This document shows positions 7,688-34,663 of a stretch of 64,000 bases of DNA, one piece after another. A model generated the notes under the pieces. That model was not told where the DNA came from. It saw only the letters and a list, made by a program, of their open reading frames with translations, and did no database searches. Position numbers and translations under genes: made by a program. This DNA comes from Lutibacter sp. (GTDB lineage Bacteria; Bacteroidota; Bacteroidia; Flavobacteriales; Flavobacteriaceae): assembly GCF_030692605.1 (NCBI RefSeq), contig NZ_JAUYUD010000114.1, forward strand, positions 1-64,000. Direction: 5' to 3'. Position 1 is the first letter of the stretch. Each line of letters starts with the position of its first letter.

Positions 7688-7690
7688 AAG

Positions 7691-9226: not shown

Positions 9227-12034
9227 ATGAATATAGGCTTCAAAAATACCACTACTTTCTTTTTCGTTTGGTTAATTGGATACACGATAGGGGTACAAGC
9301 ACAATTTTCTCATTATTTTCAGAATTATGCGCTTTCAGATTATAAAGCAGGAAATCAAAATTGGGATGTTAGCAAGGCAGATGATGGAAAGCTGTATGTT
9401 GCAAATAATGACGGTTTGTTGGAATTTGATGGCCTTAATTGGAATTTTTGGGGAATGCCAAATAAAACAACCATTAGATCTGTTTTAGCGCATAAAGACA
9501 AAATATTTGTAGGTTCATATGAAGAGTTCGGATATTTTATCAGAGATGAAAAAGGAATTTTAAATTATTCATCTCTTGTTGATTTAATTGTTGAAAAGGA
9601 AAAAAACAACGATGAAGAATTTTGGCAAACAATTGTTTTTAAAGACGCTATTGTTTTTAGATCGTTTTCAAGTATTCATATTTACAATAAAAACAAATTA
9701 AAATCGTATTACTTACCCTCCATTATAATGTCGTGTGATATAGTTGAGAACAGGCTATTTGTATCCACATTAAGTAATGGGATTTTTGTATTTAATGGTT
9801 CAAATTTTGAACCTTTTTTTGATTCAGAAGTATTAAGAAATTCAAAAATTGTTTCTATTTTGGCATTAGACAACTATCAATTATTAATTAATACTGAATT
9901 AAAAGGATCGTTTATAGTAGAAAACAATCGAATTTTTCCTTGGGAAACTGCAATAAATCCTATTCTCAAAAAACATCAATTAAATAGATTTTCAAGGTTT
10001 GGAGCAGACAAATTTGTTTTTGGAACCATAAAAGATGGAGTGTATATATCAAATAAAAAAGGGGAAATACTTTTTCATATCAATCGGCAAAGCGGAATTT
10101 TAAATAATACGGTATTAGGACAATTAGTAACCAAAGAAAATGAACTTTGGCTGGGACTAGATAATGGAATTGCCTTTATAGATTTGAAAACACCAAATTA
10201 TTTTTATAATGATGTATCGGGAAGGTTAGGTGCAGTTTACGATATTATAAATTTTAAAAACAGGATTTACATAGGTAGTAACACTGGACTTTATGTTTTG
10301 GATAATGAAAGAAACCTTCAATTTATTGAAAACTCTCAAGGACAGGTTTGGGATTTAAACGAAATTAATGGTGAACTTTTTTGTGGTCATAATAATGGAA
10401 CATATTTAGTTAAAAACAATAAGTTAGAACTAATATCAACTTTCACAGGTGGTTGGGTTATAAAAAAGATACCAGAACAAGAAAATAGTTTTATACAAGG
10501 AACTTATACAGGGTTGGTAAGTTTTAAAAAAATAAGCAACAAATGGGAAATTCAGCATTTAGGAAAAACGACTATTCCAGCTCGTTTTTTAGTATTTGAA
10601 GATAAACAAACAGCCTGGATTGCTCACGTAAATAAAGGAGTGTATAGGGTTAAATTTGATGCCAATTACACTAAAATTATTGAAATGAAAAATTACCTTG
10701 ATAAAGGGTTGTACTCCGATTTTTCAGTTAAAATTTATAAAATTAAAAATAATATTACATTTAAAACTTTAAAAGGTTGGCAAAAATATGAGGCATTATT
10801 AGACAGTATTGTACCCCATAATTTATTAAGTGAAAATTTTCCGGATAATAGTTATATTATTTCTGAAGATAATGTTTCAAAAGCAGCCTTAATAACAGAA
10901 AACGCCATATTATTTAATACTATTTTAAACCCCGAAGGAGGATTTTCTATAGGTAATAAATATTTTAAAAAACGATTAGTTACAGGTTTTGAAAAAATAT
11001 CGAAACTAAATGATTCCTCATTTGCACTTTCTTTGCAAGATGGTTTTATGATTATTAGCCCCCAATTTCACTCCAATTTAAATCAATTAAGAAAGCCCGT
11101 TATAGAACGAATTTATTTAAATAACGAACTTCATAGCACCACATTATTAAGTTTTAAAATACCGTATAAAAATAATTCAATTAAATTAATGGTTTCTTCA
11201 GCTTTTTCAAAAGACCATAGTTTTGAATACACACTTTCAAATTCTAGCCGTCAAACAAATTGGATAGAAGCTAAAAAAGGTGTTGTTGAGCTTTCTAAAC
11301 TTTCTAATGGAAGTTATAATTTATTGATAAGATCTATTAATAACGATGCCAAATCTGAAATTTTGGCTATTGAAATTGAGGTGTTAGCACCTTGGTATAA
11401 AAATACAATAGGATTTGTAATTTATGCTTTTTTAATTTTATTAGTTGGCTTAATGATGTATTTAACGCATAAAAGAAAAATGCGAAAAGTGCAAGACTTT
11501 CTTCGGGTTAAATTCGAAGAAGAGCAAAGTAAAATGCTCGAAATTAAAAAAAGAGAAAGTGAAAAGGAAATTATAAACCTAAAAACCGAAACTTTAAAAA
11601 ACGAGGTTAAGTTAAAAAGCAAACAATTAGCAAATACAGCCATGGCCTTGGTTAAAAAGAATGAAATATTGCAAAATTTAAAAGATGAATTAGTAACAAA
11701 TAAAGATAATTTTAACAACCAATATTCTTTTAAAAAGTTAATAAAGCAAATTAATAACTCTATTGAACACGAAGATCAATGGGAAATTTTTGAATACAAT
11801 TTTAATCAGGTTCACGAAGAATTTTTTAAACATCTCACGTCATCTTTTCCAAGTTTAACTCATAAAGACCTTAAAATTTGTGCTTATTTAAAAATGAATC
11901 TTTCTACTAAAGAAATTGCACCATTGTTAAATATTTCTACACGAGGCATAGAAACTCATAGGTATCGACTAAAATTAAAACTTGGTTTAGAAAAACAAGA
12001 TAGTTTAAGGGGTTTTTTACAAAAAATTAATTAG
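9227..12034 (+). CDS. Membrane-anchored PUL regulator: propeller sensor, Y_Y_Y domain, TM helix, LuxR-type HTH
   Basis: Predicted sensor-regulator that switches on the following PUL when a glycan fragment binds outside the inner membrane. It has a signal peptide (ending GVQAQ), about 600 residues of two-component-regulator propeller repeats (LEFDGLNWNFW, LWLGLDNGIAFIDL), then a Y_Y_Y-like Ig domain (about 690-730) ending in APWYKNTIGF. One TM helix (about 731-750) and a coiled coil follow. The C-terminal 65 residues are a LuxR-type HTH (LKICAYLKMNLSTKEIAPLL, then ISTRGIETHRYRLKLKLGL). There is no histidine kinase or receiver domain, so this is the one-component form rather than a hybrid two-component system. 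It is transcribed towards susC, 226 bp away. Confidence 0.88.
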   Translation: MNIGFKNTTTFFFVWLIGYTIGVQAQFSHYFQNYALSDYKAGNQNWDVSKADDGKLYVANNDGLLEFDGLNWNFWGMPNKTTIRSVLAHKDKIFVGSYEEFGYFIRDEKGILNYSSLVDLIVEKEKNNDEEFWQTIVFKDAIVFRSFSSIHIYNKNKLKSYYLPSIIMSCDIVENRLFVSTLSNGIFVFNGSNFEPFFDSEVLRNSKIVSILALDNYQLLINTELKGSFIVENNRIFPWETAINPILKKHQLNRFSRFGADKFVFGTIKDGVYISNKKGEILFHINRQSGILNNTVLGQLVTKENELWLGLDNGIAFIDLKTPNYFYNDVSGRLGAVYDIINFKNRIYIGSNTGLYVLDNERNLQFIENSQGQVWDLNEINGELFCGHNNGTYLVKNNKLELISTFTGGWVIKKIPEQENSFIQGTYTGLVSFKKISNKWEIQHLGKTTIPARFLVFEDKQTAWIAHVNKGVYRVKFDANYTKIIEMKNYLDKGLYSDFSVKIYKIKNNITFKTLKGWQKYEALLDSIVPHNLLSENFPDNSYIISEDNVSKAALITENAILFNTILNPEGGFSIGNKYFKKRLVTGFEKISKLNDSSFALSLQDGFMIISPQFHSNLNQLRKPVIERIYLNNELHSTTLLSFKIPYKNNSIKLMVSSAFSKDHSFEYTLSNSSRQTNWIEAKKGVVELSKLSNGSYNLLIRSINNDAKSEILAIEIEVLAPWYKNTIGFVIYAFLILLVGLMMYLTHKRKMRKVQDFLRVKFEEEQSKMLEIKKRESEKEIINLKTETLKNEVKLKSKQLANTAMALVKKNEILQNLKDELVTNKDNFNNQYSFKKLIKQINNSIEHEDQWEIFEYNFNQVHEEFFKHLTSSFPSLTHKDLKICAYLKMNLSTKEIAPLLNISTRGIETHRYRLKLKLGLEKQDSLRGFLQKIN

Positions 12035-12070
12035 ACAAGACTTCGCCATTATCATTTTTTCAATAGTTTT

Positions 12071-12182
12071 ACTACGTCATTAATACGCCATTATAAAACA
12101 CGCAATCGTTGTTTTAAAGCTTTACATATCTTTTTTTAACTACGTCAGCAGGGTTTTTTAAATAAATATTAAAAGTGGCGTA
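12071..12182 (+). promoter_or_regulatory. Candidate operator region upstream of susC
   Basis: Two direct copies of ACTACGTCA (12071-12079 and 12139-12147) plus a long-range inverted pair TACGCCA (12084-12090) / TGGCGTA (12176-12182) occupy the 226-bp gap between the regulator and susC. This is the place where the upstream HTH regulator would act. Binding is inferred only. Confidence 0.4.
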
Positions 12183-12260
12183 CTTAAAACGTATGCTGAA
12201 TTAATTTTCCGTTTAATTAATTTCTAATTTTAATAATTATTAAACATTAACTTAATTTAA

Positions 12261-15200
12261 ATGAAAGCAAAATTAATTTTCACCTTATTATTAGTATTTC
12301 CTTTTCTAATTTTTGCGCAGGAAAGAAATATCACAGGTAAAGTTACTTCTACAGACGGAGTTCCACTTCCTTCGGTAAATGTTTTAGTAAAAAACAAAGC
12401 AAAAGGAACAACAACTAATTTTGACGGAGTATACTCGATAAGTGCTTCTAACAATGAAATATTAGTATTTAGTTACATTGGTATGAAAACAAAAGAAATT
12501 GTTGTTGGAGTTACTAATGAAATAAATATTATTTTAGAAGATGACTCTCAAAGTTTGGACGAAGTAGTAGTTGTTGGTTATGGAAAAATGAATGTTAAGG
12601 ATTTAACCTCATCCATTACAACTATTAAATCGGAAGAAATTTCGAAAACACCTACAGGCTCCGCTATGCAAGCTTTACAAGGTAAGGTTACTGGTTTACA
12701 AGTTGTAAGCAATGGTTCACCAGGAGAAAGCCCAACAGTACGTGTTCGTGGAGTTGGTTCTTATCCAGGAAGTGGTAGTACAGCTCCACTTTATGTTGTA
12801 GATGGAATGTTTTTTGATAATATTGATTTTTTAAACACATCCGATATTACATCTATCTCAGTACTAAAAGACGCTTCAGCTTCAGCAATTTATGGGGTTA
12901 AAGCTGCAAACGGAGTGGTGCTTATAGAAACTAAATCGGGTTCGTACAATCAAAAAACAGAAATTTCTTATGATGGATATTCTGGATTTCAAGTTGCTCA
13001 AAATGTGCTAAAAATGGCAAATGCTGAGCAATTTACTTCGATGGCTTTAGAATCTGGTTCTCCAGCTGATGTTAGTTTTATATTAAACGCCATGCAACGT
13101 TTTGGTAGAAGTAGAATTAATCCGAATGTGCCAGATGTAAATACAGATTGGTATAAAGAAATTCTTCGTCAAGCGGCAATTCAAAATCACAATATTGGTA
13201 TTACAGGGGGTAGCGATAAAGCTACGTATTCCATTGGTTTAAATTATTTTTCTCAAGATGGTATTTTGGATATGAAAAATGAATATGAGCGATTTAATGT
13301 TAGATCAAAAATTGATTTTAAAGCTACAGATTGGCTTACTGTTGGTGGTAATATGATTTTGAGCAATGCCACCAAATTTAATGAAGCATCAGAAGCTTGG
13401 AATCAGGCTTATTTTGCTGTTCCAATTTTACCAATTTTTGATGAAGATAACACAAATGCTTGGCCAACAAATTATGCAAGTGCCCAAAGTATTGGATATA
13501 GAGGAGGGCAAAATCCTTTCCCAGCATTAGATTTTAATAACGACCGTACAAAAACAAGAAATGTATTGGCTAATTTCTACATGCAATTTGAATTGATTCC
13601 TAGTAAGTTGACATTCAAAACAACATACAACCACAGTTTTAAATCGTTAGACAACAGAGATGTTGAACTACCTTATTATATTACAGACGGTTTCCAAAGA
13701 CCAGTTTCTGCCATTACAAAACGAACAGAAACTTTTTCAAATCAAATTTGGGATAATGTGTTAACCTTTTCAGACAGTTATGGGAAACACGATATTACTG
13801 CAATGGTAGGAACATCGTTTAGAGACGATCAGTGGAATATGTTAACTGCAAGAGGTGAAGATATTGCATCTATTGGACAAGAAGTATCTTGGTATATAAG
13901 TCAGGCAAGTACCATTAATACAAGCAGTGTTCGCGACGATGGTGTTAGACAATATGGGATGTCTTATTTTAGTAGAATAGCTTATAAATTTGATGAAAAA
14001 TACTTGGTATATGGTACTTTACGTGCAGACGGAACTTCAAAATATCAAGAAAAATGGGGTTATTTCCCGACTATAGGATTAGGATGGGTTCTTTCTGAAG
14101 AAAACTTTATGAAAGACATTAATACTTTTAACTATTTAAAATTACGTGGAAGCTGGGGTCAACTTGGAAACAGCAATGTTCCTGCAAGCGATGGTGCAAC
14201 CACAACAAGAATTGTTGATACTGCAATTGATGGCGTTCTTGTTTCAGGAACAATAGCTACAAGCACTTTTTCTGCACTTGGATGGGAACTTACCGAAGAA
14301 ACCAATGTTGGTATAACTTCTAGATTATTTGATAACAGATTAACAATTGATGCAGATTATTACATTCGAGATACCAAAGAAGCTGTTATTCCTGTTGGAT
14401 TCCCACTAATTGGAGGTGGGGTTAATAAAAGTGTGGGCTCTATAAGAAACTCAGGTTTTGAATTGGCATTAAATTGGAATAACAAAATTTCAGATGAACT
14501 TAGTTATAATGTTGGTGCTAATTTTTCAACGCTTAAAAATGAGGTATTAGATCTTTATGGTCAAGAATATTTGGATGGTGGAATGGCCGAATTTCGTCAA
14601 AGATCTTATGTAGGAGAACCATTGTTAGCATTTTACGGAAGAGAAATAGTTGGTGTTTATCAAAATGCTGCTCAAGTTCTCGCAGATCCAGTAGCAGTAG
14701 CAAATGGGTTGGCGCCTGGAGATTTTATTTATAAAGATCAAAATGATGATGGTTTCATAAATGATGAAGACCGCGTAATTTTAGGCTCTTATTTACCATC
14801 ATTTATGTATGGTGCAAATTTGAATATAACCTATAAAAACTTTGAATTTTCTACAAGTTTATCAGGACAAACAGGAAATAAAATTTTGAATCGAAAAAGA
14901 GGAGAAATGATTTGGACATCGGATGGAAATTTGGATGCAGATTTAGCTATAAACCGTTGGCACGGAGAAGGAACTTCAAACTCCTATCCATCTTCAGCAG
15001 GATTAAGAAAAGGATGGAATCAAAAAATGAGTGATTATTTTGTAGAAGATGGCTCTTTTTTTAGAATTCAAAATGTACAAATGGCTTATAACATAAAAAA
15101 TGGCGAACAAGTTTTTGGAACAATAATGCCTGATATTAGAATTTCATTAACTGCAGAACGGCCATTTACATCGTTCAAGTATAATGGATTTAGTCCAGAA

Positions 15201-15275
15201 ATAGCAAATGGAGTTGATACTCAAACATATCCAATACCTGCTGTTTATACATTAGGAATAAACATTAAAATTTAA
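12261..15275 (+). CDS. susC: SusC/RagA-family TonB-dependent outer-membrane transporter
   Basis: Imports oligosaccharides across the outer membrane with TonB energy. After a signal peptide (IFTLLLVFPFLIFAQ) comes a carboxypeptidase-D-like domain (NITGKVTSTDGVPLPSVNVL), then the TonB-box/plug region (LDEVVVVGYGKMNVKDLTSS, and LYVVDGMFF), and a 22-strand-type barrel ending in AVYTLGINIKI. The 1004-residue length is normal. The susD partner follows 12 bp downstream. The symbol denotes the family, not orthology to the starch protein. Confidence 0.96.
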   Translation: MKAKLIFTLLLVFPFLIFAQERNITGKVTSTDGVPLPSVNVLVKNKAKGTTTNFDGVYSISASNNEILVFSYIGMKTKEIVVGVTNEINIILEDDSQSLDEVVVVGYGKMNVKDLTSSITTIKSEEISKTPTGSAMQALQGKVTGLQVVSNGSPGESPTVRVRGVGSYPGSGSTAPLYVVDGMFFDNIDFLNTSDITSISVLKDASASAIYGVKAANGVVLIETKSGSYNQKTEISYDGYSGFQVAQNVLKMANAEQFTSMALESGSPADVSFILNAMQRFGRSRINPNVPDVNTDWYKEILRQAAIQNHNIGITGGSDKATYSIGLNYFSQDGILDMKNEYERFNVRSKIDFKATDWLTVGGNMILSNATKFNEASEAWNQAYFAVPILPIFDEDNTNAWPTNYASAQSIGYRGGQNPFPALDFNNDRTKTRNVLANFYMQFELIPSKLTFKTTYNHSFKSLDNRDVELPYYITDGFQRPVSAITKRTETFSNQIWDNVLTFSDSYGKHDITAMVGTSFRDDQWNMLTARGEDIASIGQEVSWYISQASTINTSSVRDDGVRQYGMSYFSRIAYKFDEKYLVYGTLRADGTSKYQEKWGYFPTIGLGWVLSEENFMKDINTFNYLKLRGSWGQLGNSNVPASDGATTTRIVDTAIDGVLVSGTIATSTFSALGWELTEETNVGITSRLFDNRLTIDADYYIRDTKEAVIPVGFPLIGGGVNKSVGSIRNSGFELALNWNNKISDELSYNVGANFSTLKNEVLDLYGQEYLDGGMAEFRQRSYVGEPLLAFYGREIVGVYQNAAQVLADPVAVANGLAPGDFIYKDQNDDGFINDEDRVILGSYLPSFMYGANLNITYKNFEFSTSLSGQTGNKILNRKRGEMIWTSDGNLDADLAINRWHGEGTSNSYPSSAGLRKGWNQKMSDYFVEDGSFFRIQNVQMAYNIKNGEQVFGTIMPDIRISLTAERPFTSFKYNGFSPEIANGVDTQTYPIPAVYTLGINIKI

Positions 15276-15287
15276 AAAAACAGTATT

Positions 15288-16820
15288 ATGAACTATATTA
15301 ATAATTTTATAAAACTCATGTTACTTGCAGTAGCCTTTTTAGTTACAGGGGCTTGTAATGACAATTTAGACGAGTTAGCAGAAAACAGATCTTTTACAGG
15401 AGATACAGATTATACCATTTCATCTAATATGATAAACCCTTTAATAGGTGCATATGCTGAATTTAACGGAAGAGGTTGGGAAGATTTTCCGCTTATTTCT
15501 GTTAGAGGAGACGATGTAAATGCAGGTGGACTTGGAGATCAACAAGATTATGCAGAAACAGATAAATACAACTACAATAAAGATTATTGGATGTATAATT
15601 CTGTGTGGCAAAATCTTTATTTCGATATTTTAGTAATGCACTCTACTATAGAGCAAATTGAATTGTATAAAGCTAATGGAGGAAACCCTGTGTTGGCCGA
15701 ACAATACATTGCTGAAGCTAAAGTTCTTAGAGGATTTTTATTACTGCAAGTATCAAGAGTTTGGGGTAATGTGTTTATAACAAAAGGTTCAGACCCTTCA
15801 GATTTATTGATAGCGCCAGTTTCTTCAAAAGCAGAGGTTATGCAGCATATTTCTAATCAAATGGATGAAGCAATTCCAGTATTATTAGATGTGCGCCCAA
15901 ATCAACGTACAGATATTAGAGGTGGAGCAACAAAGTATACTGCATTAGCTATAAAAGCATTGGTTAATCTTGAGTTAAAAAAATATGATGTTGTGGCATC
16001 TGCAACAGCTCAAATCATTTCTTCAAGCAAATTTAGTCTTGCAACAGATTTTTACGAATTGTTTAAATTGGATGGAAAACTGAATAATGAAAATTTATTA
16101 GAGCTTCAATTTTCTGATTTCGGACAAGGTTCAGGAAATAACAGAGGTCATTTATTTGCATTTTATGGACCAGAAAATTGGACTCCTAGTGTTACAGGTT
16201 CTGGTAGTGGTTGGGGCTTTTATGAGCCTAGTTTAAAATACATTAAATTTATGTTAAGCAGAGGTGAACAAGTTCGTTTAGAAACAAGTGTACTGTTTAC
16301 CAATAGAGGAATTAATGCGATTAAAGCCGATCCAGCATATGCTACTTTGCCAAGTTGGATTACAAATACAACTAGAGATGGTGATCGTATTAATGATTAT
16401 GCGCGTGCAATGTTTGCAAGCGGAAAACACTACTTACCTTCAAACCAATTAACTACTGGAAGAACCGATTATGGCACCAATAAAAACTTTACATGCATAC
16501 GTTATGCTGAAATTTTATTAATGCATGCCGAGGCATTAACACAAGGTGCTTCTAGCACTGGATTAACCGCAGCACAGGCCGTTAATTTAGTGAGAACTAG
16601 AGCTGGCTTATCTTCACTTTCAGCTGTTACAAATGCTCAAGTAATGGATGAAAAATTTGCAGAGTTGGCTATGGAGTGGGGAACTCGATATTACGATAAT
16701 ATCAGATTAGGAAATATCGCGGCTCTAACATACGATGGTAGAACATTTTCTGAAAATAAAACCTTTTTGCCATATCCTCAAGCGCAAGTTGATAAATTGC
16801 CAATATTGAGAGGTCAATAA
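15288..16820 (+). CDS. susD: SusD/RagB-family surface glycan-binding lipoprotein
   Basis: Forms the lid of the SusC transporter and binds the incoming glycan at the cell surface. The signal peptide ends in a lipobox (FLVTGAC, Cys about residue 23) followed by NDNLDELAEN. TPR-like helices and the SusD hallmark EAKVLRGFLLLQVSRVWG are present, as is the C-terminal RYAEILLMHAEAL motif. 510 residues fits. It is the second gene of the susCD pair, and a 31-bp gap leads to the LamG lipoprotein. Confidence 0.96.
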   Translation: MNYINNFIKLMLLAVAFLVTGACNDNLDELAENRSFTGDTDYTISSNMINPLIGAYAEFNGRGWEDFPLISVRGDDVNAGGLGDQQDYAETDKYNYNKDYWMYNSVWQNLYFDILVMHSTIEQIELYKANGGNPVLAEQYIAEAKVLRGFLLLQVSRVWGNVFITKGSDPSDLLIAPVSSKAEVMQHISNQMDEAIPVLLDVRPNQRTDIRGGATKYTALAIKALVNLELKKYDVVASATAQIISSSKFSLATDFYELFKLDGKLNNENLLELQFSDFGQGSGNNRGHLFAFYGPENWTPSVTGSGSGWGFYEPSLKYIKFMLSRGEQVRLETSVLFTNRGINAIKADPAYATLPSWITNTTRDGDRINDYARAMFASGKHYLPSNQLTTGRTDYGTNKNFTCIRYAEILLMHAEALTQGASSTGLTAAQAVNLVRTRAGLSSLSAVTNAQVMDEKFAELAMEWGTRYYDNIRLGNIAALTYDGRTFSENKTFLPYPQAQVDKLPILRGQ

Positions 16821-16851
16821 TATAAATTGATTATTTAAAACAATTAAAAAG

Positions 16852-18564
16852 ATGAAAAAATTTAAAAATATAATTCTAGTTATAGTTGTCTCTCTTTTTG
16901 CATTTTCATGTGAAGATGGTATAGATGATATTACTAAAGTAGATCCGGGAGCTGACGCTACAGCTCCAATAATAAAGGTAAATTATCCTTTAGAAGGAAC
17001 CAAAATTCAAGTAAAAGAAATTGTTACCTCCATAAATATTCAATTTGAAGTGACTGATGATATTGAAATTGGAAAAATTGACGTTTTTATAGATAATGTT
17101 AAAATAGTTGAATTTTCAGAATTTAAAGATTATCGAAGAGCTATAAAGGAATATTTGCATACAAACTTAACTAATGGTGCACATGTTTTAAAAATTGTAG
17201 CTACAGATATTGAAGGGAAAGCCACTATAAAATTGATTAATTTTGAAAAAGTGTCTCCTTATACAACTTTGTTTAATGGTGAAGTGCTTTATATGTCTTT
17301 TGATGGCGATTATTTAGATTTAATCAGTTTTAAAACAGCTTCAAAAGTTGGAACACCTGGCTTTACAACTGCAAGTTTTGCTGGTTTAAATGCGTATAAA
17401 GGAGCAACAGATAGTTACCTTACATTTCCTACTACAGGGTTATTAAGCGCTGAATTTAGTGCAGGATTCTGGTATAAAGTAGATGCCTCTCCAGATAGAT
17501 CTGGAATACTAACAATAGGAAAAGACGATAATAGAACTCAGGGTTTTAGATTATTTAGAGAAGGAAGTGGTGCTAAACAAAGAATTAAACTTAACGTTGG
17601 AACTGGAAATGGTGAAAGTTGGAATGATGGTGGAGAAATAGATGTTGCAGCTGGTCAATGGGTTTATGTTGCATTTACAATATCCCCTATAAACACGAAA
17701 ATTTATTTCAATGGTATTTTAATGAACACTGCAGGAACGGGTGCTAGTGTTGATTGGTCTGGGTGTAATTCAATGAGTATAGGTTCTGGAGCTCCAACAT
17801 TTAGTTATTGGGATCATAAATCTGATAAGAGTTCTATAGATGAGTTAAGAATTTTTAATAAAGCATTATCTCAATCTGAAATTCAAAATATAATAAATGT
17901 AACCAATCCTTATACACCTAAATATGCAGGAGAAACATTTTATATGCCATTTAATGGAACAAATACGGAATTAATTACAAATACCGAAGCTTCAAAAATT
18001 GGGTTACCAACCTTTGCTGGTTCAGGATTTAGTGGTGGAAATTCCTATAAAGGAGCAACGGATTCTTACTTAACGTATCCTATTAATGGATTATTTGGTA
18101 ACGAATTTAGTGGTTCGTTTTGGTATAAAGTAAATGGAACTCCAGATCGCTCAGGAATTTTAGTTGTAGGAAATAATGTGCCTGAAAATCGAAATCAAGG
18201 TTTCAGATTGTTTAGAGAAGGAAGTCCAACTAATCAACGACTAAAACTAAATGTTGGAACTGGAAATGGCGAAAGCTGGAATGATGGTGGCGTTATAGAT
18301 GTTACAGCTGGAGAATGGGTGCACGTTGTGTTCACTGTTTCACAAACCAAAAGCACTATTTATTTTAATGGTGTAGAAATGTTATCTTCTACGTTAAGTA
18401 CAAAAGTTGATTGGACAGGTTGTAATAGTCTTTCTATTGGGTCTGGTGCGCCAACCTTCAGCTATTGGGATCATAAATCAGATCAAAGTAATTTAGACGA
18501 ATTACGATTGTTTAACAAAGCATTATCGCTTACTGAAGTTCAAAAAATCTACAACGATAAATAA
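16852..18564 (+). CDS. Surface lipoprotein with Ig-like domain and two tandem LamG (concanavalin-like) domains
   Basis: Occupies the SusE/SusF position and is probably a surface glycan-binding protein. The signal peptide ends FAFSC (lipobox), then an Ig-like domain (about 35-140). Two LamG-type domains follow, about 145-355 and 360-570. They are clearly an internal duplication: SIGSGAPTFSYWDHKSD, RLFREGS and LNVGTGNGESWNDGG occur in both halves. No catalytic motif is seen. The ligand is unknown; binding of the PUL glucan is inferred from the neighbours. Confidence 0.85.
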   Translation: MKKFKNIILVIVVSLFAFSCEDGIDDITKVDPGADATAPIIKVNYPLEGTKIQVKEIVTSINIQFEVTDDIEIGKIDVFIDNVKIVEFSEFKDYRRAIKEYLHTNLTNGAHVLKIVATDIEGKATIKLINFEKVSPYTTLFNGEVLYMSFDGDYLDLISFKTASKVGTPGFTTASFAGLNAYKGATDSYLTFPTTGLLSAEFSAGFWYKVDASPDRSGILTIGKDDNRTQGFRLFREGSGAKQRIKLNVGTGNGESWNDGGEIDVAAGQWVYVAFTISPINTKIYFNGILMNTAGTGASVDWSGCNSMSIGSGAPTFSYWDHKSDKSSIDELRIFNKALSQSEIQNIINVTNPYTPKYAGETFYMPFNGTNTELITNTEASKIGLPTFAGSGFSGGNSYKGATDSYLTYPINGLFGNEFSGSFWYKVNGTPDRSGILVVGNNVPENRNQGFRLFREGSPTNQRLKLNVGTGNGESWNDGGVIDVTAGEWVHVVFTVSQTKSTIYFNGVEMLSSTLSTKVDWTGCNSLSIGSGAPTFSYWDHKSDQSNLDELRLFNKALSLTEVQKIYNDK

Positions 18565-18586
18565 TATTGATTAATTTTAAAGGGGT

Positions 18587-18652
18587 TGTCTGAAAAAAAA
18601 ATCATTTACTTGAACTTGTTTATGAAGAAATGATTTAGGATCTTTTCAGACA
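18587..18652 (+). other. Long nested hairpin inside the PUL operon
   Basis: TGTCTGAAAA (18587-18596) pairs with TTTTCAGACA (18643-18652), and inside it AAATCATTT (18599-18607) pairs with AAATGATTT (18628-18636). It occupies the 168-bp gap between the LamG gene and the first GH144 gene, the largest gap within the susC-to-GH3 run. It could be an attenuator or processing/stability element separating highly expressed susCD mRNA from the enzyme genes. Confidence 0.5.
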
Positions 18653-18732
18653 TCTCACTTTAATAAAAACATTACAGTAATTGGGGGTTATACTTTTCAA
18701 GGTGTAGCCATCTTTATACTATTTCTTTATAT

Positions 18733-20097: not shown

Positions 20098-20102
20098 AGG
20101 TC

Positions 20103-21473: not shown

Positions 21474-21491
21474 AACTTCAAAATTAGAAGA

Positions 21492-22319
21492 ATGAATAGC
21501 TTTAATAATTATTTAAAATCATTTTTTTTTGTAAGGTTAAAAATCGTAGTTTGTTTAATAATATTAGGTTTAAGTCCTAATTTAAACGCTCAAGATCAAG
21601 AAATTTTTCAAAAAAAAGTGTTTGTAAAAGGGAAAGACACGTTGCTTTATAGAATATTGTATCCTGTAAATTTTTCAAAAGAAAAAACGTATCCTGTGTT
21701 GTTATTTTTACACGGAGCAGGTGAAAGAGGGAATGATAATGCATCTCAATTAACACATGGAAGTGCTTTATTTACCAACCCCAATAATAGAATACTTTTT
21801 CCTGTAATTGTTCTATTTCCTCAATGTTCACTTGATAATTATTGGTCTAATGTTGAAATAGACCGATCAACAAAACCAATTTCATTTAAATTTCAGAGTG
21901 ATGAAGCTCCAACTAAATCCTTAGGATTAGTTATTGAATTAATGGATTATCTATTGCAAAAACCTTTTGTTAATAGGCAACAAGTTTATGTTATGGGATT
22001 GTCTATGGGAGGAATGGGAACTTTCGAAATATTGGCAAAAAGACCTACTGTTTTTGCAGCAGCAATTCCAATTTGTGGTGGCGGAAATCCTTCAACTGCA
22101 ACATTATATGCAAAAAATACAGCACTATGGGTATTTCATGGCTCAAAAGACGATGTTGTGAACCCACAGTTTTCAGTTGAAATGGTGAAAGGAATTTTAG
22201 ATGCAGGAGGAAATCCAAATTTCACATTATTCGGAGATGCCAATCATAATAGTTGGGATCATGCTTTTGCCGAGCAGAATTTATTAGGATGGCTATTCTC
22301 AAAAAAAAGAAAAGAATAA
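21492..22319 (+). CDS. Secreted alpha/beta-hydrolase (prolyl-oligopeptidase/esterase-like)
   Basis: An exported hydrolase with a signal peptide ending near LNAQ. It shows an oxyanion/HGAGERG strand (LLFLHGAGERGND), a nucleophile elbow GLSMGG (Ser about 171), an Asp after strand 7 (FHGSKDD, about 220) and a His in ANHNSW (about 252), a complete catalytic triad. The size and motifs fit the PHB-depolymerase/carbohydrate-esterase-like group often encoded in PULs. It could remove acyl decorations from the glycan; substrate unknown. It starts 18 bp after the second GH144 gene and ends 11 bp before the GH3 start. Confidence 0.82.
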   Translation: MNSFNNYLKSFFFVRLKIVVCLIILGLSPNLNAQDQEIFQKKVFVKGKDTLLYRILYPVNFSKEKTYPVLLFLHGAGERGNDNASQLTHGSALFTNPNNRILFPVIVLFPQCSLDNYWSNVEIDRSTKPISFKFQSDEAPTKSLGLVIELMDYLLQKPFVNRQQVYVMGLSMGGMGTFEILAKRPTVFAAAIPICGGGNPSTATLYAKNTALWVFHGSKDDVVNPQFSVEMVKGILDAGGNPNFTLFGDANHNSWDHAFAEQNLLGWLFSKKRKE

Positions 22320-22330
22320 AAATAAGAAGA

Positions 22331-24643
22331 ATGAAAATTAGAAAAATAAATATAATTACAAGTAGTGTTTTTACGTTGCTGTTTTTTTATGGCTGCACAA
22401 GCACAAAAATAAATACGATAAAGCAGGTATCATCAATTGACCAGAAAGTTGATTCTATTGTAAAATTAATGACCTTAGGGGAAAAATTAGGACAACTAAA
22501 TTTGCCTGGTGCAGGGGATATAACTACCGGTCAGGCCAAAAGTTCTGATATCGCTAAAAAAATTGAAGAAGGAAAAGTAGGTGGTTTATTCAGCATAAAA
22601 GGTGTACAAAAAATAAAGGAAGTTCAAAAATTGGCAGTTGAAAAAAGTAGGTTAAAAATACCATTGCTTTTTGGAATGGATGTTATTCATGGGTATGAAA
22701 CAACGTTCCCTATACCCTTAGGATTATCCGCTTCTTGGGACATGGATTTGATTGAAAAAACTACTCGAATAGCAGCTCAAGAGGCAAGTGCCGATGGTAT
22801 TAATTGGACCTTTTCTCCGATGGTAGATATTTCTAGAGATCCAAGGTGGGGAAGGGTTTCAGAAGGTGTTGGTGAAGATCCTTTTTTAGGCGGAGAGATT
22901 GCCAAAGCTATGATAAAAGGGTATCAAGGCGATGATTTAACCAAGAACAATACGATTATGGCTTGTGTTAAACATTTTGCTTTATATGGAGCTCCTGAAG
23001 CGGGGAGGGATTACAATACCGTTGATATGAGTAGGATTCGTATGTATAATGAGTATTTTCATCCCTATAAAGCAGCAGTAGAAGCGGGGGTTGGTTCTGT
23101 TATGACATCGTTCAATGAAATTGATGGTATTCCCGCAACGGGTAATAAATGGTTGCTAGACGAAGTGTTAAGAAAACAATGGGGATTTGATGGTTTTGTT
23201 GTTACGGACTATACAGGTATAAATGAAATGATTGAACATGGAATGGGAGATTTAAAAGAAAGTTCGGCCCTAGCTTTAAATGCAGGCACAGATATGGATA
23301 TGATTGGAGAAGGGTATTTGAAAACTTTAGAATTAGCACTGAAAGAAGGTTTGGTTAATATCGAACAAATTGACAATGCTGTAAAAAGAATTTTAAAAGC
23401 CAAATACAAATTAGGATTATTTCAAGATCCATACAAATATTGTGATGAGAACAGGGCTGAAACTGAAATTTTTACAAATGAAAACAGAGCTTTTTCTAGA
23501 AAAGTAGCTGCTGAAACAATGGTTTTATTAAAAAATGAACGTCAAGTATTGCCTCTAAAAAAAGCTGGAACAATTGCGTTAATTGGTCCTTTAGCAAATA
23601 CTAAAGAAAACATGCCTGGCACCTGGAGTGTTGCAACAAAACACAATTTGGCAGTCTCTTTTTTAGATGGTCTTAAAACTGTTGTTGGTGACAAAGCAAT
23701 TATTTTGTATGCTAAAGGAAGTAATCTAGATTATGATGCTGAATTTGAGAGTAAAGCTACTATGTTTGGTAAAGAATTACATAGAGATAGTAGAACAGAT
23801 AAGCAACTATTAGATGAGGCTATAGCTATTGCTTCTAGAGCAGATGTAATTATTGCTGCAATAGGAGAATCTTCTGAAATGAGTGGAGAATCTAGTAGCA
23901 GAACGAATCTAGAAATTCCACAAGCTCAAAAAGACTTGTTGAACGCATTGCTTAAAATAGGAAAACCTGTTGTGTTAACATTATTTACAGGGAGACCACT
24001 AGTTTTAAAGGAGGAAATGAAAACAGTTCCAGCTATTCTAAATGTTTGGTTTCCTGGAAGTGAAGGAGGCTTGCCAATAGCAGATGTGTTATTTGGAGAT
24101 GTAAACCCATCTGGTAAATTAACGGCAACTTTTCCTCAAAATGTTGGCCAAATTCCAATTTTTTACAATCATAAAAATACAGGGAGACCTCTGGATAATA
24201 CAGAAGGAAAGTTTGTTAAATTTTTATCTAATTATATAGATGAAAGAAACGAACCATTATTCCCATTCGGTTTTGGACTTAGTTATACAACTTTTGCGTA
24301 CAGCAATTTAAAATTAAGTACAGATAAAATTACATTTAATGGAACTTTAGAAGTTTCGATTGAGGTTACCAATACTGGAAATTACGATGGAAAAGAAGTA
24401 GTACAATTATATATTAGAGACCTAGTTGGTTCTGTTACCAGACCAGTAAAAGAATTAAAAGGATTTAAGAAAATTGAACTAAAAAAAGGACAAACAGAAA
24501 CTGTGAAATTCCTGTTAACTGTTGAAGATTTAAAATTCTACAATTACAACTTAGATTTTGTTGCAGAACCTGGTAATTTTGAAATTTTTGTTGGAACTAG
24601 TTCTGTCGAAAATTTAAAATCAAATTTCAAATTAATTAAATAA
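22331..24643 (+). CDS. GH3 beta-glucosidase lipoprotein (first copy)
   Basis: Removes glucose from the non-reducing end of beta-gluco-oligosaccharides. The start at 22331 (MKIRKINIITS) is chosen over the ORF-track start at 22253 because it gives a proper lipobox signal peptide (FFYGC) and avoids a 67-bp overlap with the esterase. The N-terminal barrel carries GMDVIHGYETTFPIPLG and the nucleophile motif GFVVTDY (Asp about 293 from this start). The second domain has GESSEMSGESSSRTNLEIP, where the acid/base Glu is expected, and a C-terminal Fn3-like domain (VEVTNTGNYDGKEVVQLYI). 770 residues is standard. Together with GH144 this resembles known sophoro-oligosaccharide-cleaving GH3 enzymes. Confidence 0.92.
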   Translation: MKIRKINIITSSVFTLLFFYGCTSTKINTIKQVSSIDQKVDSIVKLMTLGEKLGQLNLPGAGDITTGQAKSSDIAKKIEEGKVGGLFSIKGVQKIKEVQKLAVEKSRLKIPLLFGMDVIHGYETTFPIPLGLSASWDMDLIEKTTRIAAQEASADGINWTFSPMVDISRDPRWGRVSEGVGEDPFLGGEIAKAMIKGYQGDDLTKNNTIMACVKHFALYGAPEAGRDYNTVDMSRIRMYNEYFHPYKAAVEAGVGSVMTSFNEIDGIPATGNKWLLDEVLRKQWGFDGFVVTDYTGINEMIEHGMGDLKESSALALNAGTDMDMIGEGYLKTLELALKEGLVNIEQIDNAVKRILKAKYKLGLFQDPYKYCDENRAETEIFTNENRAFSRKVAAETMVLLKNERQVLPLKKAGTIALIGPLANTKENMPGTWSVATKHNLAVSFLDGLKTVVGDKAIILYAKGSNLDYDAEFESKATMFGKELHRDSRTDKQLLDEAIAIASRADVIIAAIGESSEMSGESSSRTNLEIPQAQKDLLNALLKIGKPVVLTLFTGRPLVLKEEMKTVPAILNVWFPGSEGGLPIADVLFGDVNPSGKLTATFPQNVGQIPIFYNHKNTGRPLDNTEGKFVKFLSNYIDERNEPLFPFGFGLSYTTFAYSNLKLSTDKITFNGTLEVSIEVTNTGNYDGKEVVQLYIRDLVGSVTRPVKELKGFKKIELKKGQTETVKFLLTVEDLKFYNYNLDFVAEPGNFEIFVGTSSVENLKSNFKLIK

Positions 24644-24684
24644 AAAAGAAACAACTCTTTTATAGAGGTATTACAACTATTATT

Positions 24685-26433
24685 ATGAAGAAACTATTTT
24701 TTTTCTGTGCCGTGTTTTCATTTTTTGGTCTTATTGCACAGCAAAAAACGTATTGTAATCCTGTAAATATTGATTATGGATACACTCCTTTTAAAGTATT
24801 TTCACAAGAAGGAAAGCATAGAACAACTGCAGATCCTGTTATTGTAAACTTTAAAAACAATTATTTTTTGTTTGCCACCAATCAAGAAGGTTATTGGTGG
24901 AGCGACAATATGCTTGATTGGAATTTTGTGTATAGAAAATTTTTAATAGATGATAAGTATATTCACGATTTAAATGCACCAGGAGTATTTGCAATGAAAG
25001 ATACGCTGTACGTTCATGGCTCAACCCACCAAAAAGATTTTCCTATTTGGAAAAGCGGAAACCCTACTAAAGATGAATGGTTTATAGCCGTAGACACCTT
25101 AAACGTAGGAGCTTGGGATCCAGCATTTTTCTACGACAAGGAAAAAGACAAACTGTTTTTATATTGGGGCTCTAGCAACGAATTTCCTTTATTAGGAACA
25201 GAACTAAATACTAAAACGTTACAATCGGACGGATTTGTTAAACCATTAATTTCGCTAAAACCTCAAGATCACGGTTGGGAACGATTTGGAGAATATAATG
25301 ACAATACTTTTTTAAAACCATTTTTAGAAGGTGCCGAGATTACCAAATACAACAATAAATATTACCTACAATATGGCGCACCCGCTACAGAATTTAGCGG
25401 TTATGCAGATGGTGTTTACGTTAGTAAAAATCCTTTAGAAGGCTTTCAATATCAATCTCATAACCCGTTTTCATATAAGCCTGGAGGTTTTGCAAGAGGT
25501 GCAGGTCATGGTGCAACATACCAAGATCATTTTGGCAATTGGTGGCATACATCAACCATAATTTTAGGTGTTAAAAATAATTTTGAAAGAAGAATAGGTA
25601 TTTGGCCAGCAGGTTTTGATAAAGACGATGTGATGTATAGCAACACCGCCTATGGAGATTATCCAACTTTTTTACCACATCAAAATGCAAACCATCTTAA
25701 TGGGTTATTTACCGGTTGGATGTTGTTAAACTATAATAAACCTGTTCAGGTTTCATCAACTCTAGGAGGCTATAATCCAAATTATGCGGTTGATGAAGAT
25801 ATGAAAACGCATTGGTCTGCCAAAACAAGTAACAAAGGTGAGTGGTTTCAAACCGATTTAGGAGAAATTTCTACCATAAAAGCCATACAACTTAATTATG
25901 CCGATCAAGATGTTGAATTTATGGGTAAATCTTTAGGTAAGTTTCACCAATTCAAAATATATAGTTCAAATGATGGAAAGAGTTGGAAAATCTTAATTGA
26001 TAAAAGTCAAAATAAAACAGATGTGCCACATGATTATATAGAGCTTGGAAACCCAATAAAAGCACGCTATCTAAAAATAGAAAATATTGCGATGCCAACA
26101 GGTAAATTTGCCATTAGCGGTTTTAGAGTTTTCGGTAATGGAATGTCTGAGAAACCATCTGTTGTAGAAAAATTTGTGGTTTTGCGTGCCGATCCTAATA
26201 GAGATGGGGAACGGAGAAGTGCTTGGTTAAAATGGCAACAGAATAAAGAAGCTGATGGCTACGTAATCTATTTTGGAAAAACACCGGATAAATTATATGG
26301 AAGCATTATGGTTTACAGTAAAAACGATTATTCTTTTACAGGAATGGATAGATTAGATACGTATTATTTTCAAATAGAGGCGTTTAATAACACAGGAATA
26401 TCACCTCGTTCCAACATGGTAATTTCGCAATAA
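24685..26433 (+). CDS. GH43-like five-bladed propeller enzyme with discoidin (F5/8C) and Fn3 domains
   Basis: Exported enzyme (signal peptide ending GLIAQ). The propeller has three acidic residues in the GH43 pattern: Asp about 50 in TADPVIV, Asp about 145 in GAWDPAFFYD, and Glu about 218 in EGAEITKYNNKYYLQYG. A discoidin/CBM32-like domain follows (about 350-475: YNPNYAVDEDMKTHWSA, GEWFQTDLGEISTIKAI), then an Fn3-like domain (about 490-582: ADGYVIYFGKTPDKLYG). GH43 enzymes usually act on arabinose, xylose or galactose linkages, so its place in a glucan PUL is unexpected. It may process a side chain or represent a divergent subfamily. Confidence 0.78.
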   Translation: MKKLFFFCAVFSFFGLIAQQKTYCNPVNIDYGYTPFKVFSQEGKHRTTADPVIVNFKNNYFLFATNQEGYWWSDNMLDWNFVYRKFLIDDKYIHDLNAPGVFAMKDTLYVHGSTHQKDFPIWKSGNPTKDEWFIAVDTLNVGAWDPAFFYDKEKDKLFLYWGSSNEFPLLGTELNTKTLQSDGFVKPLISLKPQDHGWERFGEYNDNTFLKPFLEGAEITKYNNKYYLQYGAPATEFSGYADGVYVSKNPLEGFQYQSHNPFSYKPGGFARGAGHGATYQDHFGNWWHTSTIILGVKNNFERRIGIWPAGFDKDDVMYSNTAYGDYPTFLPHQNANHLNGLFTGWMLLNYNKPVQVSSTLGGYNPNYAVDEDMKTHWSAKTSNKGEWFQTDLGEISTIKAIQLNYADQDVEFMGKSLGKFHQFKIYSSNDGKSWKILIDKSQNKTDVPHDYIELGNPIKARYLKIENIAMPTGKFAISGFRVFGNGMSEKPSVVEKFVVLRADPNRDGERRSAWLKWQQNKEADGYVIYFGKTPDKLYGSIMVYSKNDYSFTGMDRLDTYYFQIEAFNNTGISPRSNMVISQ

Positions 26434-26462
26434 AAACAAAATAAAAGTTTAAATAATTATAA

Positions 26463-28715
26463 ATGACAAGAATTATTAAGTTTTCAGTTCTAATGCTAAG
26501 CATCGTATTTATTTTTTCGAACTGTGAAAAAAATAATAAGAATAATCAAAGCGAAGTAGACGATGTAATGGACAATTTTATAGATAGTTTGTTGCAAGAA
26601 ATGACCTTAGATGAAAAAATTGGTCAAACAGTTTTATTTTCTGCAGGGTGGGAAGTAACAGGTCCTACATTAGATTCTAATTATGTTGTTTATTTAAAAG
26701 AAGGTATGGTAGGTGCTATTTTTAATATCCATTCTGCAAAAGGATCAAAAGAATTTCAACGCATAGCAGTTGAGGAAACACGTTTAGGAATTCCATTATT
26801 ATTTGGTTATGATGTAATACATGGCTATAAAACTATTTTTCCAATTTCATTGGGCGAATCTGCTTCTTGGGATTTGGAGATGATTGAACAATCCGCTCGA
26901 GTTGCAGCCGAGGAAGCTTCATCCGCAGGTTTACATTGGACTTTTGCGCCTATGATTGATGTAACAAGGGATCCTCGTTGGGGCAGGGTGTCCGAAGGTT
27001 CTGGAGAAGATGTATATTTAGGAAACCAAATTGCAATGGCTCGGGTTAAAGGTTTTCAAGGAGACGATTTATCTAATAACAATACCATATTAGCTTGCGC
27101 TAAACATTATGCAGCTTATGGTGCACCATTGGCGGGTAGAGATTATAATACGGTCGATATGTCGGAACGTGAATTGAGAACAACATATCTTCCTCCTTTT
27201 AAAGCGGCTATTGATGCTGGCGTATCCACTTTTATGACTTCATTCAACGATTTAAACGGAATTCCAGCATCTGGTAATAAGTTTCTATTAACTGATATTT
27301 TAAGAAATGAATGGAATTTTGAAGGTTTTGTGGTTACAGATTATACTTCCATAAACGAAATGATTCCTCACGGTTTTTCAAAAGATGAAAAGCATGCAGG
27401 AGAACAAGCCATAAATGCAGGAGTTGATATGGATATGCAAGGCGGAATTTTCTTAAGAAATTTAAAAACCTTGGTTGAAGAAGGAAAAGTATCAGAAAAA
27501 ACAATAACCGAAGCTGCAAGAAAAATTTTGGTTATGAAATATAAATTAGGGCTGTTTGAAGATCCTTATAGATATGCTGATGAAGAAAGAGAAGCAGCGA
27601 CACTTAATAAACCAGAATTCTTGGAAAAAGCGCGAGAAATGGCACGAAAATCAATGGTTCTATTAAAAAATGAAAATCAAACATTACCACTTTCAAAAAA
27701 TACAAAAATTGCATTAATTGGCCCTTTGGTAAAAGATGAAAACCATATTATAGGCTCTTGGTCGGCTCAAGGCGATCGTAATGGAAAAGCAGTAAGTGTT
27801 TTTGAAGGTGTTACAGAAATTTTAGGTTCGAGCAAAAATATTCTTTACTCAAAAGGATGTGAAATTGAAGGAGAAGATAAAACTTATTTTAATGAGGCAA
27901 TTCGTATAGCAAAACAATCGGATGTTGTTGTTATGGTAGTTGGAGAAAGCGAAGGCATGAGCGGCGAAGCTAGAAGTAGAACAAATTTGGATTTACCCGG
28001 TGTACAAAAAGAATTAATAGCTGAAATGAAAAAAACCGGAAAACCAATCGTTTTAGTTTTGATGAATGGCAGACCATTAACACTTGAATATGAAAATAAG
28101 ACTGCTGATGCAATTTTAGAAACTTGGTGGCCAGGTACCATGGGCGGTTTGGCAATTGCTGATGTGCTATTTGGAGATTATAACCCTTCTGGAAAATTAC
28201 CAATAACATTTCCTAGAAATGTAGGTCAAATACCAATTTTTTATAATGCAAAAAACACAGGTAGACCTTATGATCCTAAGACACCTGAAATTACATATAG
28301 ATCAAGATATCTAGATGTTGCAAATACGCCTTTGTATCCTTTTGGATACGGATTGAGCTATACATCATTTGAATATTCGAATTTAACAATTAACAAAGCA
28401 GAATTTAGCTTAAATGAAACAATTAATATAAATGTAACTATAAAAAATACAGGTAAATACAAAGGAGAAGAAACCATACAGCTATATGTTCAAGATTTAG
28501 TCGGTAGTGTTACAAGACCGTTAAAAGAGCTTAAAAGGTTTAAAAAAATAACACTAACACCAAATCAATCTAAAAACATAACATTTACGTTAACAGCAGA
28601 AGATTTAGTATTTTACACCTATGATATGAGTTTTAAAGCTGAGACAGGTGAATTTAAAATATTTGTTGGCACAAATAGTCGCGATGTTTTAGAAAATAAA
28701 TTTATTTTAAAATAA
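26463..28715 (+). CDS. GH3 beta-glucosidase lipoprotein (second copy)
   Basis: Paralogue of the first GH3, with a lipobox signal (FIFSNC), FGYDVIHGYKTIFPISLG, nucleophile motif GFVVTDY (Asp about 293), GESEGMSGEARSRTNLDLP and the C-terminal Fn3-like domain. The two differ around the substrate entrance (the first copy has GAPEAGRDYN, this one GAPLAGRDYN, with more divergence in the N-terminal loops), so different chain lengths or linkages are possible. It starts 29 bp after the GH43-like gene and is probably the last enzyme of the operon. 750 residues is normal. Confidence 0.92.
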   Translation: MTRIIKFSVLMLSIVFIFSNCEKNNKNNQSEVDDVMDNFIDSLLQEMTLDEKIGQTVLFSAGWEVTGPTLDSNYVVYLKEGMVGAIFNIHSAKGSKEFQRIAVEETRLGIPLLFGYDVIHGYKTIFPISLGESASWDLEMIEQSARVAAEEASSAGLHWTFAPMIDVTRDPRWGRVSEGSGEDVYLGNQIAMARVKGFQGDDLSNNNTILACAKHYAAYGAPLAGRDYNTVDMSERELRTTYLPPFKAAIDAGVSTFMTSFNDLNGIPASGNKFLLTDILRNEWNFEGFVVTDYTSINEMIPHGFSKDEKHAGEQAINAGVDMDMQGGIFLRNLKTLVEEGKVSEKTITEAARKILVMKYKLGLFEDPYRYADEEREAATLNKPEFLEKAREMARKSMVLLKNENQTLPLSKNTKIALIGPLVKDENHIIGSWSAQGDRNGKAVSVFEGVTEILGSSKNILYSKGCEIEGEDKTYFNEAIRIAKQSDVVVMVVGESEGMSGEARSRTNLDLPGVQKELIAEMKKTGKPIVLVLMNGRPLTLEYENKTADAILETWWPGTMGGLAIADVLFGDYNPSGKLPITFPRNVGQIPIFYNAKNTGRPYDPKTPEITYRSRYLDVANTPLYPFGYGLSYTSFEYSNLTINKAEFSLNETININVTIKNTGKYKGEETIQLYVQDLVGSVTRPLKELKRFKKITLTPNQSKNITFTLTAEDLVFYTYDMSFKAETGEFKIFVGTNSRDVLENKFILK

Positions 28716-28942
28716 AGTTTTTTCAGAAGTTTCTTGTAAGAATTAAAAAAACCTTATTTAAAATTTACGATTCTTCTAAAATGAATTTTAAAATGCAAGT
28801 AAAGAATCAATAAATAAAAATTTTAAAAACTGGAATAACAAAAAATAATTAAATCACTTCAATTTTAACTAAAGTTATAAAAGAATTATCGTATTTTCAT
28901 CGCTTTAAAAAATTACATAATATTAATTTTAAATATTTAACA

Positions 28943-30655
28943 ATGAATACAACAAAACCAACGAATTACCCAGCACTTTATACCTTAATTGGTGTTTTCT
29001 TTTTTTGGGGATTTATTGCAGCCTCAAATGGCGTTTTTATTCCATTTGCAAAATCTTATTTTGATTTATCTCAATTTCAAAGTCAGTTAATCGACTCATC
29101 GTTTTATTTCGCCTATTACATAGGAGCCTTTTTATTATTTATATTATCTATTATAGGTAAAAAAGATTTATTAAATTCATGGGGATTGAAAAACGGTATT
29201 GTATATGGGTTATTGCTTTCAGTTGTAGGTGCTTTTATGATGTATCCTGCATTAGCATCTAATAGTTTTGGTTTTGTTTTAAGTGCATTGTTTTTAATTG
29301 CTTTAGGATTTTCATTACAACAAACAGCTGCACAACCTTTTGCTATTGCTTTGGGAGACGAAAGCACAGGTTCTCATCGATTAAATTTAGCTGGAGGTAT
29401 TAACTCATTCGGGACTACTATTGGTCCAATTGTATTTGCTTTAGCATTATTCGGGACTACCAAATTAGATGAAAGTTTAATTAAAGGGTTAAATATGTCT
29501 ACCGTTCAATGGTTGTATGTAATTGTTGGAGTAGCCTTTTTAGTTGCCGCAATTTTGTTTAAATTTTCTAAAAAATTACCTGAAGCGAAAGCTGATTCAA
29601 CTATCGATAATGAATCTAAAGCTACCGGAATAATGAGTTTAATAACTGTTGTATTGATAGTTGTATTGGCAATGATTTTTTATCAATATACAGGAGATAA
29701 TGTTGACCATTCAAGTAAAATGGGATTGTATTTGATATTAATTGGGATTGGAACGTTGGTATTTGGATTATTATATTCCAATGCTAAAGCGAAAAAAAAT
29801 GCCGAAGGTTGGGGAGCTTTTAAATATCCACAATTAGTTTTAGGGATGTTAGCGATTTTCACCTATGTGGGAGTTGAAGTGACTATTCAAAGTAATTTGG
29901 GGGAGTATCTAAAACATATGGATTTTACAGCTTTTTTAGGAATAAATCCAGAAACTACTTATGCTGATTTTAGTAAAATGTTATCAGATAAAACGGTTGA
30001 AGGTTATTGGGCAGGATTAACACCAATGTTAATTTCGTTGTATTGGGGAAGTTTAATGATTGGACGTTGGGCGGGTGCTATTTCTGCTTTTAGTTTGTCT
30101 TCTTCTGCCAAAAAAGTTGCTTTAATTGTTGTTCCTTATGTTGCGTTTTTAGTGATTTTAGCTTCCAATTTTATTGCAGATTTTTCAGTTGATAACACAT
30201 TAACTATACTTCCTTATGCTGTAGTAATTTTAATTCAAATCTTTGGTTTTTGGTTAGGACAAGATAAACCGGCTAAAACGTTAATGATTTTTGCAATTTT
30301 AGGAATGATTGCTATGTTTATTGGAATGTACACAACAGGAAGTATTTCAGTATTTGCATTTGTAAGTGGTGGATTATTTGCTTCGGTAATGTGGCCTGTA
30401 ATATTCTCTTTAGCGTTACAAGGTCTTGGGAAGTTTACTTCTCAAGGTTCTGCATTTTTGATTATGATGATACTTGGTGGTGCTTTTATTCCACCTTTAC
30501 AAGGTAAAATAGCCGATATGTTTAACATTACTATTTCTTATTGGGTACCATTGGTTGGTTTTGGTTATTTAACCTTATTCGCTATTATGGTAAAAGGAAT
30601 TTTAAAAAAGCAAAATATTGATGTCGATACCCTTGCAGCTGCAGCGACTCATTAA
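28943..30655 (+). CDS. FHS-family (FucP/GlcP-like) sugar:proton symporter
   Basis: Inner-membrane importer of the sugar released by the PUL enzymes, presumably glucose or sophorose. The first helix carries YTLIGVFFFWGFIAASNGVF; the family motifs QQTAAQPFAIALGDE and RLNLAGGINSFGTTIGPI are present. At 570 residues it is longer than FucP (about 440), with extra hydrophobic segments in the middle (about 225-270) and 12 to 14 predicted helices. It sits 227 bp after the second GH3 and has a good terminator, so it may be either the operon end or separately transcribed. Confidence 0.88.
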   Translation: MNTTKPTNYPALYTLIGVFFFWGFIAASNGVFIPFAKSYFDLSQFQSQLIDSSFYFAYYIGAFLLFILSIIGKKDLLNSWGLKNGIVYGLLLSVVGAFMMYPALASNSFGFVLSALFLIALGFSLQQTAAQPFAIALGDESTGSHRLNLAGGINSFGTTIGPIVFALALFGTTKLDESLIKGLNMSTVQWLYVIVGVAFLVAAILFKFSKKLPEAKADSTIDNESKATGIMSLITVVLIVVLAMIFYQYTGDNVDHSSKMGLYLILIGIGTLVFGLLYSNAKAKKNAEGWGAFKYPQLVLGMLAIFTYVGVEVTIQSNLGEYLKHMDFTAFLGINPETTYADFSKMLSDKTVEGYWAGLTPMLISLYWGSLMIGRWAGAISAFSLSSSAKKVALIVVPYVAFLVILASNFIADFSVDNTLTILPYAVVILIQIFGFWLGQDKPAKTLMIFAILGMIAMFIGMYTTGSISVFAFVSGGLFASVMWPVIFSLALQGLGKFTSQGSAFLIMMILGGAFIPPLQGKIADMFNITISYWVPLVGFGYLTLFAIMVKGILKKQNIDVDTLAAAATH

Positions 30656-30693
30656 AATGTAAGCATCCTTTTAGTGTTGTGAAATAATACTTA

Positions 30694-30726
30694 AAAAACA
30701 CGTTAAGAAATTAATGTGTTTTTTTT
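30694..30726 (+). terminator. Terminator after the sugar transporter, closing the PUL
   Basis: AAAAAACACGTTAA (30694-30707) pairs with TTAATGTGTTTTTT (30712-30725) with one G-T wobble, loop of four, ending in a T-run. It lies about 40 bp after the transporter stop. Confidence 0.75.
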
Positions 30727-32514: not shown

Positions 32515-32642
32515 ATGATGAATTATTTACATTAAGAAAAATTTAACAATCTAAAACAGAGGAAATATTCGTATTGAACGACTTAGTTTATAATATTGAT
32601 TAATTTTACAAATTCTAATAAAAAATGAAATCATTTTAACTG

Positions 32643-34601: not shown

Positions 34602-34663
34602 ATTTTGATTGTAACAGATTCATTTTATGTTTATAAATTCAATTTGTTAAATCAATACATATT

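Follow-up and report, generated by a model that had tools for sequence, protein, structure and literature searches.

A predicted beta-1,2-glucan utilisation locus of Lutibacter sp. with a GH144 pair of putative surface and periplasmic lipoproteins

Beta-1,2-glucans are widespread bacterial polymers, and knowledge of how Bacteroidota break them down comes from a small number of characterised enzymes. A comparable arrangement is that of the starch utilisation system (Sus), where SusG is a surface GH13 enzyme, SusA a periplasmic GH13 enzyme and SusB a member of GH97. For GH144, a cluster of susCD, GH3 and two GH144 genes has been described in Maribacter dokdonensis 62-1 and in Zobellia (PMC8072126), and GH144 utilisation loci (PULs), which have been attributed to beta-1,2-glucan, count as one of the PUL kinds that are abundant in Bacteroidetes (PMC6499787). 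The locus of Lutibacter sp. analysed here shares with those of Maribacter and Zobellia the grouping of susCD, GH3 and two GH144 genes in one cluster, and, for both GH144 proteins, an identity of about 50% or above to CpSGL, the GH144 enzyme of Chitinophaga pinensis. It differs from them in lacking a sulfatase and in adding a GH3 of another clade, a GH43-like protein and an FHS transporter. The locus type is widespread and already known, and the Lutibacter PUL adds a member to it.

The stretch of DNA analysed (the window) is 64,000 nucleotides long. Its list of open reading frames contains 11 intact frames at 9227-30655, all on the + strand, in the order LuxR-type sensor, SusC, SusD, LamG lipoprotein, GH144a, GH144b, esterase, GH3a, GH43-like protein, GH3b and FHS transporter; every gene named in a sequence-only reading of the same DNA is present and intact. 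As expected of a Bacteroidota PUL, susC and susD lie side by side, accompanied by co-directional CAZymes and a regulator. The region is one co-directional PUL in the sense of common orientation only: the 'one directional run' of the sequence-only reading holds for orientation, and the genes may or may not form a single operon, with intergenic gaps of ~226 bp upstream of susC, 168 bp upstream of GH144a and ~227 bp upstream of the FHS gene. The strong terminator of that reading is borne out by an intrinsic-terminator-like hairpin at 30693..30724 (+ strand), 3' of the FHS gene, which closes the run with a 14-bp stem and a T tract (-13.5 kcal/mol, z -5.5 by folding); a simple GC-based terminator scan made no call there. 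Matches in a sigma-70 promoter scan were at chance level, and a search for the Bacteroidota promoter motif gave no more matches than chance.

The first gene (9227..12034, +) encodes a membrane-spanning sensor/regulator with a large N-terminal region, one transmembrane segment at about residues 727-747 as read from the sequence, and a C-terminal LuxR-type helix-turn-helix (PF00196, GerE/LuxR). It is followed on the same strand by a SusC/RagA TonB-dependent outer-membrane importer (12261..15275; TIGR04056, 770 bits), a SusD-family surface lipoprotein (15288..16820; PF07980) whose N terminus, C-NDNLDE, is export-signal-like, and a putative glycan-binding surface lipoprotein (16852..18564; Big_7 and two Laminin_G_3 domains; N terminus C-EDGIDD). 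The last of these, the LamG lipoprotein, is kept in the PUL of most relatives whose loci were opened. At the far end stands an FHS/GluP-type MFS sugar transporter (28943..30655, +; PF07690, TIGR01272 partial). The other genomes of the genus that were searched gave no FHS match at E 1e-50, which would make this gene an unrelated neighbour; that view is softened by the 80 loci fetched, 15 of which pair an FHS homologue with the GH43-like gene. Almost all of these 15 are GH144 PULs of Flavobacterium, in which the transporter comes after the GH43-like gene.

Both GH144a (18733..20097, +) and GH144b (20103..21473, +) match PF10091, with scores of 262 and 263 bits against a cut-off of 27, and the top PDB match of each is CpSGL (5gzh/5gzk), at 607 and 534 bits respectively. 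Identity to CpSGL over about 425 residues is 61% for GH144a and 55% for GH144b, and the two are 56% identical to each other. Both lack the additional N-terminal portion found in BDI_3064 (5z06), an exo-type GH144 enzyme; they align to its residues 269/281-700. The CpSGL residues D135, D139 and E142, whose importance has been reported (PMC12102758), are invariant together with E211 in GH144a, GH144b and all 88 relatives, and D400 is conserved in both and in all but one of the 88. The family model, the nearest structure and the residue conservation agree in placing both proteins within GH144, as the sequence-only reading had supposed. With the same catalytic candidates as CpSGL, the window differs in carrying two predicted lipoprotein copies whose N-terminal signals are unlike.

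The motif C-X-K-(D/E)2-X is a tested lipoprotein export signal of Capnocytophaga (PMC5080379). The N terminus of GH144b, C-K-K-D-D-Y, fits it exactly, whereas that of GH144a, C-G-P-H-K-N-K, does not. The same contrast recurs among relatives, where two or more acidic residues closely follow the lipid cysteine of 29 of 40 GH144b but only 4 of 38 GH144a proteins; these counts come from related sequences, so that p-values overstate independence and are only indicative. In this respect the surface lipoproteins SusD (36/38) and LamG (33/34) resemble GH144b, and GH3a (1/19) resembles GH144a; GH3b gives 1/9. Compared within loci, 31 of 34 untied pairs have the more acidic N terminus on the second GH144, and two of the three exceptions (L047 and L076) have GH144 proteins from other clades in reversed order, with one copy still bearing a signal. 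In roughly one in four GH144b orthologues the export signal is weak. These data support a surface/periplasm split, in which GH144b would lie outside the cell and GH144a inside the envelope, a division that the sequence-only reading had raised and that the lipoprotein signals predict. The likeness to starch Sus lies in a same-family enzyme pair divided between surface and periplasm around SusCD; the window locus has GH144 and GH3 in place of GH13 and GH97, and another sensor.

GH144 was found in 16 of 38 genomes of the genus and, over the cut-off, in 106 of 400 genomes of the family. Counted by hand, some 75 of the roughly 108 GH144-bearing family genomes listed have at least two copies, mostly about 1.4 kb apart, as do 40 of the 47 loci opened, a set picked partly for having GH144 pairs. 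In the tree, GH144a and GH144b form two clades of 37 sequences each (support 100/100 and 100/99), and each window protein groups with its same-genus orthologues in its own clade, which rules out a recent tandem duplication. The core order SusC-SusD-LamG-GH144a-GH144b-esterase-GH3 is repeated in many genera among the opened loci. Judged by the tree and these counts, having a pair is normal for the family, and the two members diverged long ago; the earlier view that GH144 duplication is unusual is contradicted, also by the published pairs of Maribacter and Zobellia.

The supposed duplication of GH3 likewise gives way to two lineages. GH3a (22331..24643, +), a predicted beta-glucosidase and a lipoprotein without export signal, is near 3u48, 5tf0 and 5xxl; its start is most likely ATG 22331 and not TTG 22253, since it is at 22331 that the signal peptide starts. 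GH3b (26463..28715, +) is also a predicted beta-glucosidase, of another GH3 clade according to the tree. Both are BglX-type by family model and carry PF00933, PF01915 and the nucleophile Asp motif VVTDY, yet their identity is 52% and the tree assigns them to different clades, each with full support. They are full-length homologues of BT3567 (5xxl) and Lin1840 (4zo6), GH3 enzymes of beta-1,2-glucan metabolism, but the closest solved structure is JMB19063 (3u48), and both are also close to general beta-glucosidases, so that action on sophoro-oligosaccharides is a putative specificity. Two GH3 genes in one locus are uncommon (L061 and L073 among the 47 opened, and also L134). The tree partners of GH3b (support 97/98) are a GH3 elsewhere in its own genome (L078), which has one in-frame stop (TAA), and GH3 proteins in genomes G007 and G023; next-nearest are those of single-GH144 PULs of the genus. 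GH3b was recruited rather than copied from GH3a. The loci of its paralogues (L078, at C5:1-20000 of its own genome, L079 and L080) contain a PhoD-like phosphatase and an Exo_endo_phos protein, L079 in addition a fused GDPD-GH16 protein and SusCD, and L078 has acetylesterases, a glycerol-3-phosphate oxidoreductase, an FGGY kinase and a likely GlpF as neighbours; such a gene content suggests that the target is a beta-glucan bearing glycerophosphate.

Of the two remaining genes, one encodes a secreted alpha/beta-hydrolase, a putative esterase (21492..22319, +; PF00326/PF02230/PF00756) with a G-L-S-M-G motif. The other (24685..26433, +) encodes a secreted protein with a GH43-like propeller domain followed by a CBM32-like F5/8C domain and an Fn3-like C terminus. 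Its description as GH43-like, taken from the sequence-only reading, is favoured by a putative GH43-type fold, a five-bladed propeller, and by an acidic triad: the top 40 Foldseek matches of the AlphaFold model are GH43 or related enzymes, though at a middling mean pLDDT of only 67, and D50, D145 and E215 (Asp/Asp/Glu) are invariant. A weak phmmer match to GH43 was also obtained, but the Pfam GH43 model matched neither the N-terminal 358 residues (E 0.01) nor the whole protein (E 0.001). The protein is not specific to GH144 PULs, a possibility ruled out by apparently stand-alone copies, 73-76% identical, in many Chryseobacterium and relatives (L087-L117 and others); no PUL gene of this kind, and in Chryseobacterium no GH144, lies within 10 kb of them.

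Two kinds of PUL occupy one chromosomal site in the genus. In genomes G033, G011 and G032 a PUL with a single GH144 adjoins homologues of 32640-47566, the long gene block that comes after the PUL in the window, and on the other side of the G033 PUL lie homologues of window 130-2462; on these flank homologies both PUL types are placed at one site, in opposite orientation relative to the shared flanks. The window, the single-GH144 type and two same-genus paired loci (L031, L032) have the regulator in common, at 60-61% identity, whereas SusC and GH144 of the single-GH144 type are 37% and 52% identical to those of the window. PUL cores have been exchanged around a kept regulator, in one direction or the other. 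That the window PUL is a mosaic, with regulator and GH3b from the single-GH144 type, is weakened by the same regulator in L031 and L032 and by the closer relationship of GH3b to a GH3 from another locus. The window also has, at 3308-8884 and so between its PUL and the flank at 130-2462, an HlyD-type protein and an efflux pump of CzcA type whose C terminus is a fused outer-membrane efflux-like part; homologues of the two were not seen at the matching site in G033.

Beta-1,2-glucan is the best-supported substrate, as the sequence-only reading had proposed, in that both GH144 proteins are near CpSGL with conserved residues. Laminarin or another beta-1,3/1,6-glucan is very improbable. GH3 enzymes of the GH3a and GH3b type can act on laminari-oligosaccharides, and kin of GH3b lie beside a GDPD-GH16 fusion, a position in other loci that also speaks against a beta-1,2-glucan PUL; yet two intact GH144 genes belong to a family characterised on beta-1,2-glucan, and there is no GH16, GH17 or GH30 in the locus. 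The latter argument, already made from the sequence alone, is valid for the locus, though the genome has two GH16 genes elsewhere. Unsubstituted beta-1,2-glucan does not, on the other hand, explain the GH43-like and esterase genes. A true substrate in the form of a decorated beta-1,2-glucan, with an ester and a GH43-type substituent that the esterase and the GH43-like protein would remove before the backbone is exposed, is a serious possibility, if not the one we favour. Both genes recur in the GH144 PULs of relatives, some of which add GH97 or GH2 genes after the GH3 or GH43-like gene (L031:13713-15845, L030:1828-3672, L069:15278-17878), which suggests variable substituents on the glucan. Many family members outside the genus add sulfatases (PF00884 with SGSH_C; L045:13736-15388, L060:3755-5428, L072:185-2014), and sulfatases in marine GH144 PULs have been taken to imply an unknown sulfated polymer (PMC6499787). 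Against this, sulfatase, GH97 and GH2 genes are all absent from the window locus, and the GH43-like protein, being also found alone in Chryseobacterium, need not act on this polymer. The paired loci of the genus that were opened showed no sulfatase either, and the single PF00884 match of the genome is on another contig.

A division of the GH144 pair by chain length (endo versus exo), instead of or besides compartment, is unlikely: GH144 includes the exo-type BDI_3064, but both window proteins are nearest to the endo-type CpSGL, and the compartment signals of GH144a and GH144b differ consistently. A more elaborate account, rather unlikely as a whole, is that of an ancient Flavobacteriaceae surface/periplasm pair that other GH144 lineages have re-formed at least once in reversed order (L047, L076). 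The pair would serve a relative of the unknown marine beta-1,2-glucan that is decorated but not sulfated, with substituents removed by the esterase and the GH43-like protein.

On the evidence of family membership, conserved catalytic residues, contrasting lipoprotein signals and conserved synteny, we infer that the locus is probably a beta-1,2-glucan PUL working like starch Sus, with GH144 in place of GH13. The LuxR-type sensor would switch on the genes; outside the cell, the LamG lipoprotein, SusD and GH144b would bind and cut the polymer, and SusC would import the oligosaccharides. Periplasmic GH144a would then shorten these, GH3a and GH3b would release glucose from sophoro-oligosaccharides, the esterase and the GH43-like enzyme would take off substituents, and FHS would import the monosaccharide. 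Such a scheme leaves the known picture of what these loci do unchanged. The new element is the recurring contrast in export signals, which offers a testable reason for keeping two GH144 genes, and the exchange of whole cores at one site shows how the locus evolves.
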